The notes beneath the pieces were generated by a model. That model made no database searches. It was not told the DNA's origin and saw only the letters and a list, made by a program, of their open reading frames with translations. From the IMG/VR virus record IMGVR_UViG_3300033999_000108, positions 1-28,762 of that record: a DNA stretch of 28,762 nt; one strand, given 5' to 3'. Position 1 is the stretch's first letter; each line of letters opens with the position of its first letter. Source of the stretch: a virus. A program made the translations under genes and the position numbers. Positions 4,284-28,628 of the stretch are shown in pieces.

Positions 4284-4574
4284 TTGGCCCATCCGAAAAA
4301 TAAAAAAGAAATGGGCGAGGAGCCGGATTGGGCTGAAATTTATACAACGCTCCTTGCCCATACCAATCTTTCTTACGATGAAATAGGTAAGAGAACTATA
4401 AAACAGATCAATGCCATTTTAAGCAGGCTTGGTAAGCACATAAACATAAAAGTTGGGTTACCTCTATTTGGAACAGAGGAAGAAGAACCTGTAAATCCTG
4501 GCAGACAACCTACTATATCGGAATTGGCTAGGATGTGCGGGATATTATCTGGTGAGATAAAGGAGGGTAGATGA
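4284..4574 (+). CDS. Tail assembly chaperone, downstream frame (T-part)
   Basis: A 96-residue frame beginning at a TTG two bases after the TGA of the previous gene. It has no ribosome site of its own, and the frame is open back to 4269 only, because TGA at 4266-4268 blocks it. The text PDWAEIYTTLLAHTNLSYDE followed by IGKRTIKQINAILSRLGKHI is the pattern of the downstream half of Bacillota phage tail-assembly chaperones. It is in the -1 frame relative to the upstream gene, so it is made either by frameshifting within 4269-4281 or by termination-reinitiation. Its TGA overlaps the tape measure ATG. Confidence 0.6.
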   Translation: MAHPKNKKEMGEEPDWAEIYTTLLAHTNLSYDEIGKRTIKQINAILSRLGKHINIKVGLPLFGTEEEEPVNPGRQPTISELARMCGILSGEIKEGR

Positions 4575-7500
4575 TGGCAGAAAATAATTCTTCAGTTGCT
4601 AAAATAGTTGGATCAATTGTAGTAGATTTTAGTAAAACGCTTGAAAGCATAAATGCTTTGGAAAACAAAGTTAAATCTTTGGATAAACAATTTAAAGAAC
4701 TACAAAACACAGTAAATGATACTGCTAAAGTTTTACAAAAAAGCTTTAATGTACGCATACAAGGCATTAAAATTGACAGTGATAAGATTACTAAGGAGTT
4801 ATCTCAAGCAACTAAATCTGTTAATAAGGATATTCAAGATACCCTCCTACGACTTGAAAGAGGTTATACTGCACTCCTGGCTAAAGGCGAACAATTAGGC
4901 GTACTGCCTAAGATGGCAGAAGCTAATTTAGCACAAATAAGAGGTCTGCAAGAACAACTGGCTTTAGGTGAAGAACTATCTAAAAATGATTTGGCTAGAT
5001 TAAAAACACTAGAAAAACGCTTGGTAAGAGCTAATTATGAGCTTGATATAGTTAAGCAAGAGACTGAATATTATGATAGATTACGCAAAGTAAGCCGTGA
5101 AATAGGAACTCCTGAAAACAGGATGCTTACTGCTCTTTCCCGTTCTATTAGTGAAGCTCCTGCTACAATAGAACAATTACAGAGTAAATTACTTACTGCA
5201 CAACGTAATCTAGTTAAATATGGTTTAGAAACTATTCCTGAAGCCACAAAAATAGCTAGTTTGCAAAATGAACTTGCTACTTTGCAACAACAGTTTGCTG
5301 TTAAAAAGAAAATATCTCAGGCTGATGTTGATCAATATAAAGAGGCTTTAAAACGGTTAAATATTATCCAAACTGAAACAGCTAATTTAGAACGTAATTT
5401 AGGATTAAAAGTTAAAGAAAAGCAATTGGAAATTGAAAGAGCAAGACAAGCTGCTATTGCACAAAAACAATTAGAAGTAGAACAACGTAAAGCTTTGGGG
5501 CCTGAATCTTTCTTAGAAAGACGTTTTGGCTGGTTTATTGCGGGAACAGGTTTCTTTGGAAGTATCGAAGCAATTAGACAAGCAACTGCAACAATTCAAG
5601 ATGTTGAGAGTGGTATGGTACAAATTTCCCGTGTTTCTAATGAAGTTGCGGGAAATTTTACTGCCATGCGAGATAAATTAATTGATCTTGCTTATCAATA
5701 TGGTATGTCATGGAAAGATGTCCAGGATATAGCTTTAAGATGGGCACAAGCAGGTTATAATATTGCAGATACTCTTAAGCTAACAGAGACTTCTCTAATG
5801 GCCTTAAATACAGCAGAATTAGATGCCCGTTATTCAACTGAAGGTCTTATAGGTATTATGAGCCAGTGGGGTATGACAGCAGCACAATTACCTGATTTAT
5901 TAGATAAAATTAATAAAGTTGCAGATGATTATACTGTGACTTCTCAGGATTTAGTAGATGGGTTGCTTCGTTCTTCTGGTGCTGCTAAAATACTGGGATT
6001 GAGTATAGAAGATACAATAGCTATTTTAACTGTAATGCGAGAAGCTACAGGAAGAACTGGAAAAGAAGTTGGTAATGCACTTAATAGTATTTTATCCTTT
6101 ATACAAAGGCCAAAGTCATTGGAAGCATTTGCAAAAGAAGGTATAGCAGTATTTACAGATGCTACAATGACTAAATTCCGTAATGTAAAAGATATTTTTA
6201 CTGATATAGCTGCAAAATGGGATTCAATGAGTGAGGCTAGTAAAGATATATTTGTTGATGCAGCAGAAGAAGCAGGACTTTATTCAGAAGAATTAGCTGA
6301 TATAGTAGGTTTACAAAAAGAATTTAATGATTTACAACGGCGCGATATTAGCCAGGCTGCCGCAGGAATTTATCGTAGAAATTACTTGGTTGCTTTGCTT
6401 CAGAATTGGGCTAAAGTTGATCAAGTATTGTTAACGATGGAAACTGCTCATGGCTATTCAATGAAAGAAAATGCCAGAACAATGGAAACATTGGAAAAGA
6501 AAGTTGCTCAATTAAAAGCAGCTTTCGTAGAATTAGCTGTAGCGATAGGTGATAGCGGATTACTTGATTTTCTCAAAGAAACAGTAGATTTAGGTAAAGA
6601 TGTAGTTAACTTCTTTAATTCATTACCTCCTGCTGTTAAAACTGTAATAACACATTTAACTACAGCATTTCTGTTATTGAAAACATTTGAACTTACAAGA
6701 TCAACACTTGCCAGGGCAACTGCTGGAAGCAAAGCTACTAATATAACCGAATCAGTTTCTAAATCTGTAACTGATGCTGCTGCAATGGCAGTTTTATTAG
6801 ATGCAACAGGAAAAGCTATTACTCAAATTGGAGAATCTTCAGTTGCTTCAGCAACTAAGATAAGTAGGTTAGCAGGTGCTTTTGGTTTAGTTGGTAACGC
6901 CGCTAAAAGTTTGTTTGCTTTATTAGGCGGTTGGCAAGGGCTTATTGTAACTGGTATTCTTGCGACTGCTCCTTCAATATATAATACATGGAAACAACAT
7001 AAAAAAGCATTAGATGAACAAGCTGATGCAGCAGCAGGAGTTTATAAAGAGTTAGAGATTCTACAAAAAGTTTATGGAGACAACATTGAAGCAACTTCCA
7101 GATATAAACAATTAGTGCAGGAAGTAGCTGAAAACTTACCTCAATTAATTACTCAATATGATGAACAAGGAAAAGCAATTGCTTTTAATCGTCAACAGTT
7201 AGAACAGTTAGCAAGTGCAAGCCAAAAATTAAACGAAACAGACATTGCAGGTAAATATGCTCAAGAAATCAATACACTTACTAAAGAACTTAGTCATTTA
7301 GAAACTCAAAGAAAATCATTACCTGAATTAATTAATTATAGAAATAAATTGGTAAGCTCACTTTCAGCAGGAAAATTAAGTGCTGAACAGGCTGAAAAAG
7401 CAAAAAAAGACCTTATTCTGGTGGATAAACAGCTTACTGAAATTGCAAAAGAAGTTGGAGTTCAGAACTTAAAAGAAGCCTTAGATACAAATAAAGCCAA

Positions 7501-9919
7501 AGATATAATTTTAAATGCTACTGACCAAAAGATACAAAGTATCAGAGAATTAATAAAATGGTATTACAACCTTCAAATCGAGGCAAAAAATACCAGTATA
7601 AAAGAAATTGAAGGAAGAATAGCAGCATTAAAAGCTTGGCAACAGTATTTATCAGGGCTTACTGGAACTGCTAAACTTGAAGCAGAAACTGAGGCTAAAA
7701 GCCCCCCGTTTTTAAGAGAAATTCTTTCGAGAATTAGAAATTGGTATATTAGAATGGATCCACCAGGAACTCATTTTGAACCTTCTCCTGAAGGTTTCAG
7801 TCCAGATCCTGCTGAAGTTGCCAGAGCTATTAAAGCAGAAGAAGATAAATTAAGACAGGCTAGAGAAGAATTACAAAGTCTGCGAGATTCTTTGAATAGT
7901 ACTTTAGTGCCACCTTCTACTCCTGGTAGAGGGTATGTGGGGTATCCTGAAACAACTAAGGAAGCAGCTAAAGAAGCTAAAAAGTGGATAGATAGTTTTC
8001 GTGATGCTTTAGAGAAGTCTGTTCCAGCAAATGTATTGGTTAATTATTACAATCTTAACGATGCACTACAAAATACTAAAAATTATATTGAAGAACTGTC
8101 TAAGCATGAAGAAGCCTTAAAAGACAAAATTGATGCTGGTAATATTAGTCGTGAAAATTATGCTAGACTGGCTTACCTTGTCAATGAACGTGTAAGAGCT
8201 TATACAGTAGAACAACAGAGATTGGAAGCAGTTAATGCTTCCTTGAATGAGCAGTATTCATATTACTTGCAAATGTTAAGTATAGCCGAAGATAAATACA
8301 ATAAGGCTGTCAGCACAAGCAATGTAGATGCTATGTATGAAACTGCTCAAGCAATAAAAGAAGTTAAAGATAAGCTGGCAGAATTATCCAATGAAATGTC
8401 CAGTAATAATCAAGCCTGGTTTGATATGTATGTCCAAATCAGGAAAGCTAAGGAAGAATTAAATGCCTTTATCTTTGAAACTACATCTAATAAAATAGAG
8501 ACTGCTATAAAGCAACAAAAATTAAGTTTAGAATCTCAACTTGAAGTGTATAAAAGACTTGCCACTATTAGGCAGTGGGATAGTAAACAATATGAAACAT
8601 TGTATGAAAATATGGCTAAGACTTACAGTGAAATAATGCAAAAGGAATTTGATAAAGTTGAAAAATATTATGATGAACACTTGCAAACATTAGAAGAAAA
8701 ACAGAAAGAATATGAGGATAACATTCAAAAACAGATAGATGCTATAGAACAAAGTGCAAAAGAGCAAATAGATGCTATACAAAAAGTTTTGGATGCCCTT
8801 AATGAGGAAGAAGAATCTGATAAGCGTGTGAAAGCAAGAGAAGAACACGAGCGAAAATTAGCTGAATTAATGGAAGAACGCAGGTATCATGAGTTAAGGA
8901 CTGGTGTTAAACATCAAAAAGCTATTCAAGATATTGATAAGCAGATTGATGAAGAAAATAGAAGATGGGCAGAGCAACAGGCAGAATGGGAACGTGAAGA
9001 TCAACGGAAAAGACTGCAAGACCAAATTGAAAATATAAAACAACAAGCTGAGATTCAGAAAGAAGGATTACAAAAGCAGTTAGAACAAGCTAGAGAAAGC
9101 TATGAGAAACAACGGAAAGAGTTAGAAAAGAATTACAAACAGATGAGAGAAATTGTAAACAATGAGATGCTTGAAATTCTAGCTAACATGGCATCTCATG
9201 AAGAACGATGGTTTGAGATAGGTAAACAATTGGCTGAAGCAATGATACAAGGCATAGAAAGCGGAGATTGGAGTAGAGCTAGAAACATTTTAGATACTGT
9301 TCAAGGAGGTATAACTGAATATCAGCAACGCGGGGCAGAAGAAGTTTATAATCAGATTAATGAAGCACAATCACCTAGATGGATAATTTATCCAGGCCAA
9401 TACGAAATGTATGGCGACAAAGCAATAATGTGGGCAAGAGCACTAGGTAATTTAACTGGAACTCCTGTAGATTGGGATCCAGATACATGGCAGGTAATAG
9501 TTAATGGTAGGCGTTTGTCACCTATCAAAATAGAAGGCGATAGAGCTTTTGTTAGCGTAAGAGAATTTATGGATGCTATTGGTAGAGATACTAGATGGGA
9601 TTCAAATACTAATCAAATTTATGTGTATCACACCGGAGGGTTTGTAAAAGAGACTGGCCCCGCATTAGTTGAAAAAGGGGAATATGTTATCCCACGAGCT
9701 ACTGTTGCCAGTTTAAATCTTAATAGAAATTCTACTGCTGCAATTGTTGGTATTGACGGTTTAAATCGTATTGCAGACCGTATTATAGCTGCAATATTTA
9801 AACGGCCAGTAGCTAACTTTGATAAACTTGTTAATATAGAGCAGTTCATTCCTGAAGATAAAACAGATGTAGAAATTTTAAGTAGAGATTTAGCAAGAGC
9901 AGTAAAGTTATTAAGTTAG
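4574..9919 (+). CDS. Tape measure protein with C-terminal stalk-like domain
   Basis: A 1781-residue tail length ruler and DNA-injection protein. ATG 4574 is 7 bases after AGGAGG and is preferred over the ATG three bases upstream. Residues about 310-520 match the TP901-type tape-measure core (ERRFGWFIAGTGFFGSIEAI, then the MRDKLIDLAYQYGMSWKDVQ and LSIEDTIAILTVMREATG region). Two hydrophobic segments follow near 690 and 770-810. Residues about 1330-1560 are a long, highly charged coiled coil. Residues about 1600-1690 (DTWQVIVNGRRLSPIKIEG, VSVREFMDAIGRDTRWD, NQIYVY) read as a copper-amine-oxidase N-terminal (stalk) domain, unusual in a tape measure. At roughly 0.15 nm per residue the tail would be near 270 nm, an inference. 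Confidence 0.9.
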   Translation: MAENNSSVAKIVGSIVVDFSKTLESINALENKVKSLDKQFKELQNTVNDTAKVLQKSFNVRIQGIKIDSDKITKELSQATKSVNKDIQDTLLRLERGYTALLAKGEQLGVLPKMAEANLAQIRGLQEQLALGEELSKNDLARLKTLEKRLVRANYELDIVKQETEYYDRLRKVSREIGTPENRMLTALSRSISEAPATIEQLQSKLLTAQRNLVKYGLETIPEATKIASLQNELATLQQQFAVKKKISQADVDQYKEALKRLNIIQTETANLERNLGLKVKEKQLEIERARQAAIAQKQLEVEQRKALGPESFLERRFGWFIAGTGFFGSIEAIRQATATIQDVESGMVQISRVSNEVAGNFTAMRDKLIDLAYQYGMSWKDVQDIALRWAQAGYNIADTLKLTETSLMALNTAELDARYSTEGLIGIMSQWGMTAAQLPDLLDKINKVADDYTVTSQDLVDGLLRSSGAAKILGLSIEDTIAILTVMREATGRTGKEVGNALNSILSFIQRPKSLEAFAKEGIAVFTDATMTKFRNVKDIFTDIAAKWDSMSEASKDIFVDAAEEAGLYSEELADIVGLQKEFNDLQRRDISQAAAGIYRRNYLVALLQNWAKVDQVLLTMETAHGYSMKENARTMETLEKKVAQLKAAFVELAVAIGDSGLLDFLKETVDLGKDVVNFFNSLPPAVKTVITHLTTAFLLLKTFELTRSTLARATAGSKATNITESVSKSVTDAAAMAVLLDATGKAITQIGESSVASATKISRLAGAFGLVGNAAKSLFALLGGWQGLIVTGILATAPSIYNTWKQHKKALDEQADAAAGVYKELEILQKVYGDNIEATSRYKQLVQEVAENLPQLITQYDEQGKAIAFNRQQLEQLASASQKLNETDIAGKYAQEINTLTKELSHLETQRKSLPELINYRNKLVSSLSAGKLSAEQAEKAKKDLILVDKQLTEIAKEVGVQNLKEALDTNKAKDIILNATDQKIQSIRELIKWYYNLQIEAKNTSIKEIEGRIAALKAWQQYLSGLTGTAKLEAETEAKSPPFLREILSRIRNWYIRMDPPGTHFEPSPEGFSPDPAEVARAIKAEEDKLRQAREELQSLRDSLNSTLVPPSTPGRGYVGYPETTKEAAKEAKKWIDSFRDALEKSVPANVLVNYYNLNDALQNTKNYIEELSKHEEALKDKIDAGNISRENYARLAYLVNERVRAYTVEQQRLEAVNASLNEQYSYYLQMLSIAEDKYNKAVSTSNVDAMYETAQAIKEVKDKLAELSNEMSSNNQAWFDMYVQIRKAKEELNAFIFETTSNKIETAIKQQKLSLESQLEVYKRLATIRQWDSKQYETLYENMAKTYSEIMQKEFDKVEKYYDEHLQTLEEKQKEYEDNIQKQIDAIEQSAKEQIDAIQKVLDALNEEEESDKRVKAREEHERKLAELMEERRYHELRTGVKHQKAIQDIDKQIDEENRRWAEQQAEWEREDQRKRLQDQIENIKQQAEIQKEGLQKQLEQARESYEKQRKELEKNYKQMREIVNNEMLEILANMASHEERWFEIGKQLAEAMIQGIESGDWSRARNILDTVQGGITEYQQRGAEEVYNQINEAQSPRWIIYPGQYEMYGDKAIMWARALGNLTGTPVDWDPDTWQVIVNGRRLSPIKIEGDRAFVSVREFMDAIGRDTRWDSNTNQIYVYHTGGFVKETGPALVEKGEYVIPRATVASLNLNRNSTAAIVGIDGLNRIADRIIAAIFKRPVANFDKLVNIEQFIPEDKTDVEILSRDLARAVKLLS

Positions 9920-12180: not shown

Positions 12181-12224
12181 CACCTATGAAATGGTAAATG
12201 GAGGGTTGATCATACCATGCTATC
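12165..12224 (+). promoter_or_regulatory. 18-bp inverted repeat over promoter -10 and recombinase start codon
   Basis: Arms 12165-12182 and 12207-12224 pair over 18 bp with one G-T pair and enclose a 24-base loop that holds the GGAGGG ribosome site. The right arm contains the ATG (12217-12219); the left arm contains the -10 box. A transcript read through from the tail genes would fold the start codon into the stem. A transcript from the local promoter begins after the left arm and cannot. It could also be a protein operator, since each arm has a TGATCA core. Confidence 0.7.
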
Positions 12225-13230
12225 TAATACTTTAAATGTTGTTGCAAACGAATTACTGTTAACTCAACTTATTAACGAAATAACACAAGTATGCCGTGAA
12301 ATTAATGTTTTGGAGTTAAGAACACGTTTTAGTAATGTGCTTTCATTATATGAAATAAAACCTATAGGATCAGCTCCACAATTTCAATCTGATCTAGAAG
12401 ATAAAATAGCACTATTTTTAGCTTCTAAACAACTAGAGGGTTTAAGTAAAGTTACTTTAGATGGGTACAAAATTGAACTGAGACTTTTTGCTAAACATAT
12501 ACAAAAACCTATAGAACAAATAACAACAGCGGATATTAGAGCTTATTTAGGACAGTTTCCTCATTTAAAGTTAAGTTCTCTGACTAGAAGGTTATCTGTT
12601 CTTAAAAGCTTTTTTGGCTGGCTAACTTCAGAAGAAATAATTCAACGTGATCCTACCCGAAAAATTAAGCCTCCAAAAACAGAAAAATCTCTTCCTAAAG
12701 CTTTAACGGTTGAAGAGCTAGAAATGTTAAGAGAAGCCTGTCAAACACCTAGAGAAAGAGCGCTTATAGAAATATTTTATGCTACAGGATGTAGACTTTC
12801 TGAAATACATCAGTTAAATCGTCAAGATATAAATTGGCAAACTCAATCTGCTAGAGTAATTGGAAAAGGAGCAAAAGAACGAGAAGTATTCTTTAGTTTT
12901 CGGGCTTTATTTCATCTGCGTAAATATTTGGCAAATCGTAACGATGCTTGTTCTGCATTATTTGTAACAGAAAGAAAGCCTTATCGTAGATTGTCAAGAA
13001 GAGCAATTCAAAGAGAGATAAAATTAATTGCTCAAAGGGCAGGAATAAAGAAAAATGTTCATCCGCATACTATGAGACATACTTTTGCAACTTTAACTTT
13101 AAATAATGGTGCTGATCTTGCAACTATTCAAGCTCTCTTGGGCCATGCTAATCCTGCTACTACACAAATTTATGCTCAAGTAAGTGACGAAAGGAAAAGA
13201 GAACAATATAAACGTCATTTTGTAATGTAA
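12217..13230 (+). CDS. Tyrosine recombinase / integrase inside the tail operon
   Basis: A 337-residue XerC/D-type recombinase that cuts and rejoins DNA through a 3'-phosphotyrosine. Residues about 58-150 form the SAM-like core-binding domain, with a roughly 55-residue extra N-terminal helix region before it. The catalytic domain has the full set: R193 (GCRLSE), K217 (GKGAKE), H284 and R287 (HTMRHTF), H310 (LLGHAN) and Y319 (TQIYAQV). It is the only recombinase in the window and may be the prophage integrase, but the place is odd: between fibre accessory genes and the Dit-like gene, far from the repressor. It has its own promoter and a start-codon hairpin. Its codons are AT-rich, unlike the gene just upstream. 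Confidence 0.9.
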   Translation: MLSNTLNVVANELLLTQLINEITQVCREINVLELRTRFSNVLSLYEIKPIGSAPQFQSDLEDKIALFLASKQLEGLSKVTLDGYKIELRLFAKHIQKPIEQITTADIRAYLGQFPHLKLSSLTRRLSVLKSFFGWLTSEEIIQRDPTRKIKPPKTEKSLPKALTVEELEMLREACQTPRERALIEIFYATGCRLSEIHQLNRQDINWQTQSARVIGKGAKEREVFFSFRALFHLRKYLANRNDACSALFVTERKPYRRLSRRAIQREIKLIAQRAGIKKNVHPHTMRHTFATLTLNNGADLATIQALLGHANPATTQIYAQVSDERKREQYKRHFVM

Positions 13231-13286: not shown

Positions 13287-14348
13287 ATGTTCAATAGTAA
13301 AGCTTATAATGCCTTACTGTTTAATGATACAAGTTTATATTTTGGGTCTGTTCTTCTTAACGGAACTGGCAATATGAACGTTTTGGCTAATTTAATTCTT
13401 CAAGCTCAGGCTTCATTAACTGGTCAAAGTAACATTGAAATTTATGTAGTTAGAAGACAGTTCAGTTCAGCTAATTTTGCTGGCATAAGCAATATACAAA
13501 TTATACCACTTAAAATTTTATATGGAAATTCTTTACTAGAAGGAATAGGGAATTTAACAGTAAATGCTTTAAAAATATTGTTTGCTACATTACAAATGAA
13601 TGGTATAGGAAACTTATCAGGAAAAGCTATAGCAGCTTCTTTTATAATAACATCAGATAATATTTTACAACCTCTCAATGTTCAAGTTTTGCGTGATAGT
13701 AGAGAAGATTTGTTGCCTGGTATTCGAGAGTTTACTGAAGAAATTCCTGGTCGTCATGGTGAAATAGATTTTGGTAGTGAATTTCAACCACGAATATTAG
13801 AATTGCATGTGATTAGTGTAGATGACCTTAATATAAGTTTACGAGAACAGATTAAAAGAGATATTGCTAAATATCTTGATCCGACCAAAGGAGTTAAAAC
13901 GCTTATATTTGCAAATGATGATACCAAAACATATAACGTAAAATATGCAGGAAGAATTGATTTAAAACAATATCCAACACGGTTGGAGTTTACTATTCCA
14001 TTTAAATGCAGCGATCCTTTTATTATGGCTACTTATGAAAAAAACCATACAGGTAGTGGTATTTTAACTAATGAAGGTACATTTGAAACACCAGTTGTCA
14101 TTACAATTAAAGGGCCGGTTACTAATCCATCAGTAAAAATAGGCAATAATACACTAACTTATACCGGCACATTAAGCAGTACTGATACTCTTATTATTAA
14201 TACTGAAACAATGACTGTTACTTTTAATGGTGTAAATGCATTAGCTAACTACAGCGGAAGTTTTCCTAAACTTCCTCCAGGCAACACAGAAGTTGTAGCT
14301 GCCAGTAGTGGTACTACAATATTTACTTGGCGAGATCGTTGGATTTAA
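13287..14348 (+). CDS. Distal tail (Dit-like) protein with N-terminal repeats
   Basis: A 353-residue baseplate or tail-tip hub protein. ATG 13287 follows AAAGGAG by 10 bases. Residues about 15-118 hold five degenerate units of about 20 residues with the pattern L-x-G-x-x-N followed by a hydrophobic stretch (LLNGTGNMNV, SLTGQSNIEI, NFAGISNIQI, LLEGIGNLTV, QMNGIGNLSG). The Siphovirus tail domain follows (VQVLRDSREDLLPGIREFTE, GRHGEIDFGSEF, FKCSDPFIM), then a C-terminal galectin-like part (NEGTFETPVVITIKG). It directly precedes the tail-associated gene, the normal Dit to Tal order, so the recombinase interrupts the tail cluster just before it. Confidence 0.75.
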   Translation: MFNSKAYNALLFNDTSLYFGSVLLNGTGNMNVLANLILQAQASLTGQSNIEIYVVRRQFSSANFAGISNIQIIPLKILYGNSLLEGIGNLTVNALKILFATLQMNGIGNLSGKAIAASFIITSDNILQPLNVQVLRDSREDLLPGIREFTEEIPGRHGEIDFGSEFQPRILELHVISVDDLNISLREQIKRDIAKYLDPTKGVKTLIFANDDTKTYNVKYAGRIDLKQYPTRLEFTIPFKCSDPFIMATYEKNHTGSGILTNEGTFETPVVITIKGPVTNPSVKIGNNTLTYTGTLSSTDTLIINTETMTVTFNGVNALANYSGSFPKLPPGNTEVVAASSGTTIFTWRDRWI

Positions 14349-14361
14349 AGAAGGTGGTATT

Positions 14362-16659
14362 ATGCCATTGATTATACCAGAATATATTGAAATCCGTAAT
14401 GCTACTGGTCAAACAGTAGCTTATTTATCTCCTGATGCTGATGGATTAAAAGAAGTCTGGATTGATCAACGATTAAATGGAGAATGTACTTTAAGTTTCC
14501 AATTACCTTTAAATTCAGATAAATGGAGTGCTCTTACACCTGAATGTCGTATTATTGCTGGAGGTAGAGAATTTGTTGTTTTACTTCCAGATGTAATAGA
14601 TATTGAACGTGATAATCAAGGTAAAACATGGGGAAAGGTTACAGCACACGAAAGCTGGATTTTACTTGATAAGCAGTATCCTACTGTTTCAAATGATCCA
14701 CAGAATCCTACCCCTGCTGATTTACAGGTAAGCATTATTTCAGGCGGCCCATCTACTGGAGGGTATCCACAAGGTAGCGCAGGAAGCGCTCTAACTTATT
14801 TACTGCAAAATTCTGGTTGGTCAGTAGGAACAGTAGATGTTACAGGCACACACGATTTAGAAACAGAAAAAGAAAGCCTTTTGGCTAATATAAAGAAAGT
14901 ACAAGAAATATGGGGTGGATATTTAGTTTGGGATAGTATTAATAAAACTGTTTCCTTACGAGCTGAAGCTACTTGGCAAAATTATAGTGGTTTTCAGATA
15001 AGATATGCAAAAAATCTTAAAAGTATTACTAGAACTGCTAATTATGATATTATCACAAGGTTATATCCGTTTGGTCAAGATGACTTAGATATTTCAAGTG
15101 TGAATAATGGAGTTAAGTATTTAGAAGATTTTAGTTATACTTCCAATATTTATGTTGGTATTTATCAAAATCAGGATATATCTGATCCACAAGAATTAAA
15201 AGATAAGGCAAGTGAAGTTCTTTCTAAACTCTGTAAACCACGTTATACTTATCGAGTTCAAATAGTTGATCTAAGAACACTACCTGAATATAGTCATGAA
15301 GATTTTATTTTAGGTGATCTTGTAGATGTAATAGATGAACAGTTAGGTATTAATGTTAGAACTAGAATTATACGTCATAAATATAATGTTTTCCAACCTT
15401 GGCGTTGCGAGTTAGAATTGGGAGAGCCAGAAGAACGATTAGCAGTACAACTTGCAGAATCTTTTGATGCGGCAAGATTTGTTCGGGAAGCATTAAGACC
15501 TAATCCTGCTACTTCTAATCTGCTTAAAGGATTTATTAATACATTCGCTACCCAAATTAATAGTGCCAACGGTAAATTGGTATGGAATGATTCTACTTTA
15601 GAAGCTATAGAAATAAATGCAAACGGAAATGAAACAGGCCGTAGAGTAAGAATTACGCCTGGCGGTATTGGAGTAAGTATTGACGGTGGTCAAACTTATG
15701 AAACAGCCATGACAGGGGCCGGTGTGTTGGCAAATAAAGTTATTGTAAATGAGTTATACGCCTTGGCTACTGATGATGGCCTTACCAAATTAGCAGCAGA
15801 CGGTTTGCATGTATATGACAGAAATTTAGCAGAACGACTGATAGCTGGCCGCTGGATTGAAGGTACACAAGAGCATTTTGGACTAAAAGCAGTAGCTCAA
15901 GATGGCCGAACTGTTTTATTAGACGATCGAGGCATCCTGCAAACATGGCAGGAAGGAAGGGCAGATAATGTAGACGCCAATAATCCTTTAGTTTTAAACA
16001 TTTATTTGCCAGCAGAAACACGCGAAATTAAAAGGGCTTTATTGCGATTTAAACTACAGGCATTTAGAGCTTATGAGACAGGGGCAGCGAGTGGGGGAAG
16101 AACATCAAAAACATCTAGTAGTTATTTAGGAGAAGTTGTTACCAGTTCTACTCAACCTTCAACAGTTCAAAGTAGTGCAGGATCTATATGGAATTATGGT
16201 ACAACCTATGTACCAGAACCCATGACAACTGAGGGTGGTCATAATCATGGTATTCCCGATGGTACAGCTTTAATGACAGCTGATGGAGGCACAGTTTGGT
16301 TTGCACAATCAGGATACCATACACACGCTATTGACACAGATCATAATCATAATGTAACTATACCAAGTCATAATCATACTGTTAATATACCTTCACATTC
16401 TCATACAGTCGATATACCTAATCATTCGCATGGCCTTGTTTTTGGCATTTATACCTCAACTCGAGCGTCTAACATTACCATAAAAATTAACGGTGTAGAT
16501 AGAACTTCAATATTAGGTGGCCCTTTTACAGTAGATCAAAATAGTCTTGATATAAAACAATATTTAAGTATAGGCCAATGGAATACTATTGAAATTGGTA
16601 GTAGTACTTTAGGAAGGGTGGATGCTTCCTTATTTATTCAAACCTTACTTACTGTTTAA
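14362..16659 (+). CDS. Tail-associated protein (Tal / prophage endopeptidase tail type) with HxH array
   Basis: A 765-residue tail-tip protein. The frame is open from 14308, but ATG 14362 behind AGAAGGTGG is the start. Residues about 1-370 read as the siphovirus Gp37/Tal-like hub domain (EIRNATGQTVAYLSPDADGL, TAHESWILLDKQYP, IKKVQEIWGGYLVWD, HEDFILGDLVDVID). The middle is a linker that describes the tail-spike shaft. The C-terminus carries six HxH motifs within about 65 residues (HNH, HTH, HNH, HNH, HSH, HSH), followed by a small beta domain (TIKINGVDRTSILGGPF to LFIQTLLTV). HxH repeats in trimeric phage spikes bind metal ions. No peptidase active site could be confirmed. Its stop overlaps the stop of the leftward moron. 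Confidence 0.8.
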   Translation: MPLIIPEYIEIRNATGQTVAYLSPDADGLKEVWIDQRLNGECTLSFQLPLNSDKWSALTPECRIIAGGREFVVLLPDVIDIERDNQGKTWGKVTAHESWILLDKQYPTVSNDPQNPTPADLQVSIISGGPSTGGYPQGSAGSALTYLLQNSGWSVGTVDVTGTHDLETEKESLLANIKKVQEIWGGYLVWDSINKTVSLRAEATWQNYSGFQIRYAKNLKSITRTANYDIITRLYPFGQDDLDISSVNNGVKYLEDFSYTSNIYVGIYQNQDISDPQELKDKASEVLSKLCKPRYTYRVQIVDLRTLPEYSHEDFILGDLVDVIDEQLGINVRTRIIRHKYNVFQPWRCELELGEPEERLAVQLAESFDAARFVREALRPNPATSNLLKGFINTFATQINSANGKLVWNDSTLEAIEINANGNETGRRVRITPGGIGVSIDGGQTYETAMTGAGVLANKVIVNELYALATDDGLTKLAADGLHVYDRNLAERLIAGRWIEGTQEHFGLKAVAQDGRTVLLDDRGILQTWQEGRADNVDANNPLVLNIYLPAETREIKRALLRFKLQAFRAYETGAASGGRTSKTSSSYLGEVVTSSTQPSTVQSSAGSIWNYGTTYVPEPMTTEGGHNHGIPDGTALMTADGGTVWFAQSGYHTHAIDTDHNHNVTIPSHNHTVNIPSHSHTVDIPNHSHGLVFGIYTSTRASNITIKINGVDRTSILGGPFTVDQNSLDIKQYLSIGQWNTIEIGSSTLGRVDASLFIQTLLTV

Positions 16660-17180
16660 ATGATGTTTAATGCTTTTAAATCAGACTTATAAACTCCAGT
16701 AATACCAGTATTTGGATTGGTAATTAATCTAATATATCCTACAGTTTGCCCATTTGAATTCTTTACTTCAGTAATTATAGCTTTATTGCGTGATTCAAAC
16801 AATTGATCTACTGAAATATTAAACTCTAAATGGTTATTTGTTTTAATATATGTTCCTTCAGATGAAGCAGTCATTTCGATAATAATGCCTTTTGTTTTTA
16901 ACTCTTTTAAACTTATTACTTCATCATTGGTTATTAAGGAAACAGAATTAGAACTGTTAATAATTACTACTTGCTGCTTCTCATTCCAATTTACCTTTGC
17001 ACCTAAAGCTTCTGATACAAATCTTATTGGTACGAATGTTCTACCGTTTATTATTAGCGGTGGTGGATCACAAGGCACTTCTTTACCATTGACAATAAGT
17101 TTAATCGGCTGATCTGCAAATGCGACAACAGTAAATGAAAGAATTATACCTACTAATAGACATGTAAAAAATTTTTTCAC
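16656..17180 (-). CDS. Secreted stalk-domain (copper amine oxidase N-term-like) protein, moron
   Basis: A 174-residue protein on the opposite strand to the whole late operon. GTG start at 17180 with AGGAGGG upstream. Residues 1-22 are a clear Sec signal peptide (MKKFFTCLLVGIILSFTVVA, then FA before D23). Residues about 25-75 are a stalk domain: IKLIVNGKEV, a PPLIINGRTFVPIRFVSEAL core, GAKVNWNEKQQVVII. The rest is a beta-rich unknown part. Such domains are common in envelope proteins of Clostridia. Its own promoter (17247-17274) means that it can be expressed from a prophage, so a lysogenic-conversion or surface role is inferred. The stop codons of this gene and the tail gene share bases 16657-16658. 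Confidence 0.8.
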   Translation of the reverse strand: MKKFFTCLLVGIILSFTVVAFADQPIKLIVNGKEVPCDPPPLIINGRTFVPIRFVSEALGAKVNWNEKQQVVIINSSNSVSLITNDEVISLKELKTKGIIIEMTASSEGTYIKTNNHLEFNISVDQLFESRNKAIITEVKNSNGQTVGYIRLITNPNTGITGVYKSDLKALNII

Positions 17181-17202: not shown

Positions 17203-17224
17203 AATTAGGATGACTATCCTAATT
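17203..17224. promoter_or_regulatory. Perfect palindrome in the moron 5' region
   Basis: AATTAGGAT (17203-17211) and ATCCTAATT (17216-17224) around a 4-base spacer. It lies between the predicted leftward start of transcription (about 17240) and the ribosome site, so it could be an operator or an RNA hairpin. The half ATCCTAATT also begins the repeated leader element at 20089 and, as ATCCTAAT, at 24163. Confidence 0.6.
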
Positions 17225-17246: not shown

Positions 17247-17274
17247 ATTCTATATCTCATCCTGAATTTGTCAA
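17247..17274 (-). promoter_or_regulatory. Sigma-A-type promoter of the stalk-domain moron
   Basis: On the minus strand TTGACA (17274-17269) and TAGAAT (17252-17247) are separated by 16 bases, leading into a 5' region of about 60 bases before GTG 17180. This independent promoter pointing against the late operon is typical of a moron. Confidence 0.7.
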
Positions 17275-17300
17275 GGAAATTATTGGTAAGGAGGATAAAA

Positions 17301-18305
17301 ATGGCTAATACTTATCTATTTCCGTATGAAATTCAAGAAGTAACTCCTCAATCAGGTATACCCTGGAATGTTCAACAGGTAAATGCTCCTTCATTTTGGC
17401 AGCGTACAAAAGGAGATGGTGCAGTAGTAGCGATAATTGATACAGGATTAGATGTAAATCATCCTGAATTTGCTGGACGTGTTATAAGTTATCAGAATTT
17501 TACTTCAGATGCTTCATTAGATAGTGACGGCCATGGAACTCATGTTGCAGGTATTATAGCTGGAAAGACTGTCGGTGTGGCTCCAGAATGTCGCTTAATG
17601 GCGTTAAAAGCATTGGGTAATGGTATGGGAGCTTTTAGCATTGAAGATGCTTTTAAATATATTTTAGACTATAATGAAAAAGTTCCAGAACAAGATCGGG
17701 TAGTAGCAGTAAATTGCAGTTGGGGAGGGCCGTATAATCCTATACACCATTATTTAATCAGACGACTTATACACAGTGGTGTTGCTGTCATAGTTGCAGC
17801 TGGAAATGCTGGTGACGGAAAGCCTGAAACTGAAGAAATTTTTAGCTGGCCTGGCTTTTTGTATGAAGTTATAACGACGGGTGCTACTAATAAAGATGGT
17901 CAACCGGCAGGATATTCAAGCAGTTATGATGGAATTGATATAGGTGCTCCCGGTACTGAAATTTATAGTGCTTGGCCTGGTGGTGGGTATAAATTACTAA
18001 GCGGCACTAGTATGGCAACGCCCCATGTTACGGCAGCTTATGCTTTAATAGCTGCCGCTTTTAAACAACGTGAAGGCAGATACCCCACGGTAGATGAAGG
18101 AGAAGAAATTCTGTTTAAGCATATTCGCCAAACAGGAGCAGATCCACGTTTTATCGGAAAAGGTTTACTGGATTTAACATTTGATTTTAAACGGTGGCCG
18201 TTGTATCGAGTACAAACAGGAGCTTATTATTATAAACAGGGTGCAAAAATTACTTCTCAAAAATTAAAAGATGCTGGCTTTAATACTTACATTGTTAAGT
18301 ATTAG
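17301..18305 (+). CDS. Subtilisin-like serine protease (ISP-like) with short C-terminal SPOR-like segment
   Basis: A 334-residue S8 family protease. ATG 17301 has AAGGAGG upstream and is chosen over an upstream TTG. Catalytic D47 (IIDTGLD), H78 (DGHGTHVAG) and S237 (SGTSMATPH), with oxyanion N169 (AAGNAGDG), are all present. There is no signal peptide or long propeptide. The short N-terminus with LFPYE resembles the LIPY-type inhibitory segment of intracellular subtilisins, as does the GNAGDGKPETEEIFSWP surface. Residues 301-334 (YRVQTGAYYYKQGAKITSQK, then LKDAGFNTYIVK) match half of an SPOR peptidoglycan-binding domain. It stands at the head of the lysis cassette. A role in lysis, tail processing or host attack is inferred only. 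Confidence 0.88.
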   Translation: MANTYLFPYEIQEVTPQSGIPWNVQQVNAPSFWQRTKGDGAVVAIIDTGLDVNHPEFAGRVISYQNFTSDASLDSDGHGTHVAGIIAGKTVGVAPECRLMALKALGNGMGAFSIEDAFKYILDYNEKVPEQDRVVAVNCSWGGPYNPIHHYLIRRLIHSGVAVIVAAGNAGDGKPETEEIFSWPGFLYEVITTGATNKDGQPAGYSSSYDGIDIGAPGTEIYSAWPGGGYKLLSGTSMATPHVTAAYALIAAAFKQREGRYPTVDEGEEILFKHIRQTGADPRFIGKGLLDLTFDFKRWPLYRVQTGAYYYKQGAKITSQKLKDAGFNTYIVKY

Positions 18306-28013: not shown

Positions 28014-28628
28014 ATGATTGAATATAGATATTCATACAAAGATCCTGTGGTAGTACAGAAAATAGCTCAAACTATTTGTGATTTAAGGCAGGAATTAGAT
28101 CGAGATCAAACACGTCAACTTGTAATAGTCTGTATAGGTACTGATCGTTCTACTGGAGATAGTCTGGGGCCATTGGTAGGTACTTTTATAAGAGAAAAAT
28201 TAATAGATAAACTAACTGTTTATGGAACTTTAGATGAACCTGTTCATGCTTTGAATTTAAGAGAGTGTTTAAATAATATTAAACAAATTAAAAATCCATT
28301 AATAATTGCTGTTGATGCATCATTAGGTAGAGAAAAAAGTGTAGGTGATATTATTATTGGGAAGGGAAGTCTTATACCAGGTATTGGTGTAAATAAAGAG
28401 TTACCTAAAATTGGGGATATATTCATTAAGGGAATAGTTAATATTGATGCAAGTCATTTTAGTAATAGTTTTACACATTTGATACTGCAAAATACTCGTT
28501 TAGGATTGGTATGGAAAATGGCTAATGTAATTGCTAGAGGAATTGAGAAAGCTATAACACAAGATAGAATAAATGATATGTATTCTAGTTCATATTGTGA
28601 GTATGCTGTGGTAAGCTGTGTTAGCTAA
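28014..28628 (+). CDS. yyaC-like: YyaC-type sporulation protein (DUF1256, spore-protease-like)
   Basis: A 204-residue protein matching the YyaC family of spore-forming Bacillota: CIGTDRSTGDSLGPLVG (40-56), YGTLDEPVHALNL (70-82), IIAVDASLG (97-105), IPGIGVNKELPKIGDI (121-136) and LQNTRLGLVWKMAN (158-171). The fold is related to the GPR germination protease, but the biochemical role of YyaC is not settled. It starts at ATG 28014 with AGGGTGAG upstream. Carriage by a phage is unusual; it could affect sporulation of a lysogen or entry into the spore. It is the last gene before the structured tail of the window. Confidence 0.85.
   Translation: MIEYRYSYKDPVVVQKIAQTICDLRQELDRDQTRQLVIVCIGTDRSTGDSLGPLVGTFIREKLIDKLTVYGTLDEPVHALNLRECLNNIKQIKNPLIIAVDASLGREKSVGDIIIGKGSLIPGIGVNKELPKIGDIFIKGIVNIDASHFSNSFTHLILQNTRLGLVWKMANVIARGIEKAITQDRINDMYSSSYCEYAVVSCVS

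Follow-up and report, generated by a model that had tools for sequence, protein, structure and literature searches.

A stalk-family (PF07833) module in an exchangeable slot near the C-terminus of a phage tape measure protein

Introduction

Some tape measure proteins (TMPs) have inserted cell-wall hydrolase domains, such as pb2 of phage T5. The module described here, which lies in a TMP encoded on a 28,762-base virus DNA (the whole stretch analysed, hereafter the window), resembles these in being an extra folded domain close to the tip end of the TMP, but it has no catalytic domain and is swapped with non-enzymatic modules among relatives. It shares sequence family, predicted fold and two-unit form with the solved domains of the copper-amine-oxidase-N or stalk family PF07833 (Cu_amine_oxidN1), namely the N-domain of PaSOD (8IMD) and that of E. 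coli amine oxidase; the known domains are on secreted or enzyme proteins, whereas that of the window is part of a TMP. In PaSOD the PF07833 domain serves dimerisation, forming a homodimer via strand and helix pairing; PaSOD carries a signal peptide but was not detected in the medium (PMC10432803). The best sequence match in a cultured phage is the end of the endolysin of Paenibacillus phage phiBP (FN538971), which likewise has two terminal stalk units but carries them on a GH25 lysis enzyme, whereas the TMP module sits on a virion rod. The C-terminus of the TMP is located in the tail tip of lambda (PMC10721106), and for p2 and TP901-1 it has been placed in the Dit-Tal cavity (PMC5099701). Ltp of phage TP-J34 is a superinfection-exclusion lipoprotein that reportedly acts on the TMP C-terminal region (PMC3952083). 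It is a prophage-made exported protein like the secreted stalk protein (moron) of the window; Ltp has repeat domains and adjoins the integrase, whereas the moron has a stalk unit, adjoins the tail-tip gene and shows no lipobox in its signal sequence as an anchor of the Ltp type. A search of the open-access literature found no paper that names a tape measure protein together with the PF07833 stalk domain.

Stalk module of the tape measure protein

The features of the TMP gene in the window are as follows.

4571-9919, + strand: TMP gene, 1782 aa (PhageMin_Tail 100 bits, TIGR01760 135 bits)
9380-9631, + strand: two-unit stalk module in the TMP slot, residues 1604-1687 (PF07833, alignment, AlphaFold)
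9404-9517, + strand: stalk unit 1 (secondary structure of the model; moron profile 8.3 bits)
9527-9631, + strand: stalk unit 2 (PF07833 match 9524-9628; model; moron profile 15.5 bits)
9632-9916, + strand: conserved C-terminal tail, about 95 aa, HTGGFV...GPALVEKGEYVIP... (local scores; common to TMPs with other slot modules)

Against the curated PF07833 cut-off of 24.2 bits, the C-terminal fragment of the TMP alone scored 28.1 bits (E 2e-6), the TMP frame scored together with its neighbours 25.1 bits, and the whole 1782-aa protein 20.7 bits, slightly under the cut-off. Pfam detects the second unit only and misses the first; the tandem was recognised by alignment with 11 other TMPs, by the AlphaFold model and by a profile built from the secreted stalk proteins, which gave the scores listed at residues 1613-1647 and 1642-1688, respectively. 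The model (pLDDT 90.5) contains a strand-strand-helix-strand-strand unit twice. Foldseek searches of the PDB with this model returned E. coli amine oxidase (E 0.3, 73 columns) and 8IMD, a SOD bearing PF07833, as weak top matches (E 0.3-0.4), and searches of predicted viral structures returned phage proteins named copper amine oxidase at the top (E 3e-4) and a peptidase-C51 protein (E 2e-3). A 12-row profile of TMP modules reached 8IMD in the PDB only at E 0.03, phmmer found no meaningful match to the TMP end in the PDB, and tblastn with the window's own TMP end matched nothing among cultured phages. As it returns in the same position in 11 further TMPs, the module is not a chance match; a preliminary description of the window had placed a stalk domain at 9355-9650, and the location is confirmed, with two units at about 9380-9631.

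Slot in related tape measure proteins

Alignment placed a stalk module in the identical position in 11 further TMPs, or 12 with that of the window. PF07833 passes its cut-off in eight of the 11; L179 falls below it (16.1 bits) and is clear by alignment, and the modules of L112 and L114 were placed solely by alignment. One is in a genome prophage (L114), seven are in viral records (L150 with its near copy L149, L151, L152, L153, L154, L196 and L179), and three are TMP genes that lie in genomes but not in ordinary prophages (L112, L113 and L115). In all 12 the module is flanked by a charged coiled-coil stretch before it and the C-terminal tail after it; the tail starts with HxGGxV or HTGAYV and has a GExV motif.

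Relatives without the stalk module retain both flanks with different sequence between them. At least three unrelated sequences fill the slot between homologous flanks: one with LKxxW and YYxQL motifs (L178, L180, L182, L190, L193 and L117), one with DWGMSDADYQAF (L183 and L186), and further contents in L184/L185 and, different again, in L116. Some of the replacing sequences are apparently helical, and Pfam gave no name to any of those scanned. Over all pairs of a stalk-bearing with a non-stalk TMP, the mean local score was 256 before the slot, 26 inside it and 97 after it, against 169 inside the slot for pairs of stalk-bearing TMPs. The clearest pair, L151 and L184, is 49% identical over 170 aa, then has unrelated inserts, then is 62% identical over 102 aa. 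On these comparisons the slot is an exchangeable cassette in which flanks are kept and inserts swapped; what the window holds in it is a real, non-catalytic end module, the function of which is considered below.

Several TMP genes differ in setting. In L006 (14993-17133, - strand) the TMP is split into two overlapping frames of 368 and 347 aa, by sequencing error, frameshift or decay. The TMP genes of L115 (2574-7013, with L220 9175-16061), L113 (4340-8539, with L221), L112 and L117, all outside ordinary prophages and three of them with the stalk module, adjoin genes for a proteasome-like protein and an HTH protein. The neighbourhood in G036 includes an integrase, a Lin1244/Phg_2220 replication protein and a Toprim/DnaB protein, with no capsid, terminase or tail-tube gene seen there, and that in G043 an integrase and a DnaG zinc ribbon. 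Such loci could be satellite-like elements with their own tape measure.

Relation to wall-acting proteins and proposed role

When two TMP modules were used in tblastn, the only cultured-phage match was the end of the phiBP endolysin (E 3e-4 and 4e-6, 26-30% identity), in which a GH25-like enzyme is followed by the two stalk units. For 10 of the 12 TMP modules the best endolysin score, mostly that of the phiBP module, exceeds the best moron score, the exceptions being L114 and L152. PF07833 is also found at the end of the amidase endolysins of L006 and L116, and the stalk module ends the S8 (subtilisin-like) proteases in the lysis regions of L153 (15104-16189, + strand) and L154 (17246-18352, + strand). 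The window has a homologue of those proteases at 17268-18305, which carries no stalk module and ends in a weak SPOR-like stretch. In a profile search of 391 Clostridia genomes, mainly stalk proteins other than TMPs were found. A passage in a paper on another lysin states that the phiBP endolysin showed a comparable loss of activity when cut down to its catalytic domain (PMC6385185); a loss on removal of the end part is no proof that the stalk units bind.

We propose that the TMP has a cassette slot between its coiled-coil rod and conserved C-terminal tail, here holding a two-unit stalk module that, by position and analogy with lambda, p2 and TP901-1, would lie in the tail-tip cavity. When the tip opens, the module would be among the first parts out and could contact the Gram-positive envelope, most likely holding the cell wall as related endolysin ends reportedly do. 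We give about an even chance to this reading as a whole, in which the TMP module is an envelope-contact part at the leading end, probably wall-binding, and the moron uses the same fold as a tether and is no dedicated partner of the TMP module.

A possible but distinctly less likely role is that of an oligomerisation or packing piece, linking TMP chains or filling out the Dit-Tal cavity without a target in the host. The homodimerisation of the PaSOD domain (PMC10432803) and the closed cavity in which the TMP sits are consistent with it, and the two units of the model could pair within one chain, as in the matched amine oxidase N-domain. Unrelated sequences, some apparently helical, replace the module while the flanks stay, however, so no specific pairing is needed, and its nearest phage relative sits on an endolysin. 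It is improbable that the module is a passenger drawn from the many stalk proteins of the host with no selected role in the TMP. Varied content is tolerated in the slot and stalk proteins are common in hosts (nine moron-like matches in one genome), but the TMP modules group together as one coherent family (mean scores of 124-190 among themselves and of about 45-58 to morons) whose core is conserved in distant phages, which argues that they are kept as TMP parts.

Secreted stalk protein beside the tail-tip gene

The second stalk protein of the window lies downstream in the tail region, with the following features.

13287-14348, + strand: distal tail protein Dit (Sipho_tail 58 bits, SPP1_Dit 45 bits)
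14308-16659, + strand: tail-tip protein Tal (Prophage_tail 172 bits)
16656-17180, - strand: secreted stalk protein (moron), convergent with Tal (PF07833 116 bits; identical copy in L005)
16953-17108, - strand: single stalk unit of the moron (PF07833; 8IMD top structural match)
17115-17180, - strand: moron signal peptide, MKKFFTCLLVGIILSFTVVAFA followed by D, no lipobox (by inspection; predicted helix 2-22)
17204-17223, no strand: perfect 8-bp inverted repeat ATTAGGAT-gact-ATCCTAAT, between the promoter-like site and the moron start
17247-17274, - strand: moron promoter-like site TTGACA-16-TAGAAT (11 of 12 consensus bases; consensus match only)

The gene has the features of a moron, being on the opposite strand between late genes with its own promoter-like site. 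The inverted repeat is present as a single copy in the window, where no second copy makes a repressor regulon visible. The moron model, well modelled solely in its N-terminal and stalk part, matched 8IMD best in the PDB (probability 1.00), and the protein matches a glucosaminidase of Paenibacillus phage Pd_22F.

Phages were collected by their Dit, a criterion independent of stalk domains, and then screened both with PF07833 and by ORF reading. In these relatives the site beside Tal is usually occupied by a secreted protein, nearly always convergent and -7 to 666 bases from Tal. A short kind, with an N-terminal unit and a variable rest, is found in the window, L006/L202, L118, L178, L179 (which has an SH3_3 domain), L184, L193, L203 and L204, with divergent forms in L183, L186 and L190. 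A long kind, in which a different N-terminal domain is followed by two units, is found in L114 and L152-L154, and L116 has the N-terminal domain of the long kind without stalk units. Given this domain without units and the two kinds, the stalk unit is a detachable tag beside Tal too. The morons of L183, L186 and L188-191 fall under the Pfam cut-off. In G528 (L186), Pfam matches a second secreted stalk protein, encoded on the other strand, and not the moron at 12495-13208; Pfam misses this moron, and a local profile found it at 45 bits. The stricter association counts given below take this into account. In the proposed reading, one unit of the widespread stalk fold would tether the moron's variable domain, and the moron would belong to a slot that commonly holds morons beside Tal.

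Other genes were also recorded. In L118 (14587-19426, Peptococcaceae BICA1-7) a Dit-like/Tal/moron block adjoins genes belonging to another tail type, as though nothing but that block had been kept; its Tal is 58% identical to that of the window. A tyrosine recombinase gene (12217-13230, + strand, Phage_integrase 136 bits) lies in the tail operon of the window, with fibre-like genes on one side and Dit on the other; L114 apparently has one in the corresponding position (7106-7942). The recombinase might act on the fibre genes. A match to the spore protease YyaC family at 28014-28628 (+ strand, TIGR02841 180 bits against a cut-off of 85) suggests a spore-forming host.

Occurrence of the two proteins

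The preliminary description had proposed that the TMP domain and the moron are of one fold type, share an envelope target, and that the moron mimics the injected domain to exclude superinfecting phages. The first point holds, the two proteins being of one fold family. For the second, an envelope target is plausible for each because such a module is also the terminal part of endolysins and of many secreted proteins, but there was no sign of a matched TMP-moron pair.

Both proteins are present in the window, L179, L114, L152, L153 and L154. Stalk morons beside Tal also occur where the TMP has no stalk module (L178, L184, L193, L202/L203 and L204, and divergent ones in L183, L186 and L188-191), and the TMP module occurs without the moron in L198/L150. 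Such free occurrence of the moron is the occurrence part of what the preliminary description had itself named as speaking against its proposal. Where both places are visible, a moron is present in five of six lineages with the TMP module and in eight of nine without it (p=1), in a sample of 15 lineages with classes assigned by hand, small enough to be compatible with a moderate link. Counting Pfam-passing morons only, the figures are five present and one absent with the module against five and four without it (p=0.58), and among near relatives five and one against three and four (p=0.27). Across the six phages with both proteins, own TMP-moron pairs summed to 327 against a permutation mean of 325, and 46% of permutations reached that sum; these phages thus show no extra own-pair similarity, as the 15 lineages show no association. 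A specific TMP-moron pairing is therefore unsupported. The TMP module was also considered as a copy of the window's own moron and rejected, as it scored 59 to that moron against 86 to phiBP and a mean of 124 to other TMPs.

That the moron excludes superinfecting phages by mimicking or binding the TMP stalk module or the envelope partner of that module is very improbable: co-occurrence in six phages, the promoter-like site and the precedent of Ltp acting on a TMP C-terminal region (PMC3952083) speak for it, but each protein occurs without the other, association and own-pair similarity are absent in the samples compared, and the TMP modules are nearer to endolysin modules than to morons.

Significance

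Beyond the preferred reading, in which the TMP module contacts the envelope and the moron acts as a tether, a broader model can be framed. The TMP slot might be a general first-contact cassette that changes the envelope partner of the ejected tape measure in Gram-positive siphophages, secreted stalk proteins beside Tal might compete for that partner, and the two loci might jointly decide phage entry into a lysogen; we regard this as a long shot. Little is known in the field about the role of the tape measure of a Gram-positive phage once it is outside the tail. The TMPs described here are a natural series differing mainly in one cassette of about 85 aa beside an essential tail, which would make envelope contact testable.
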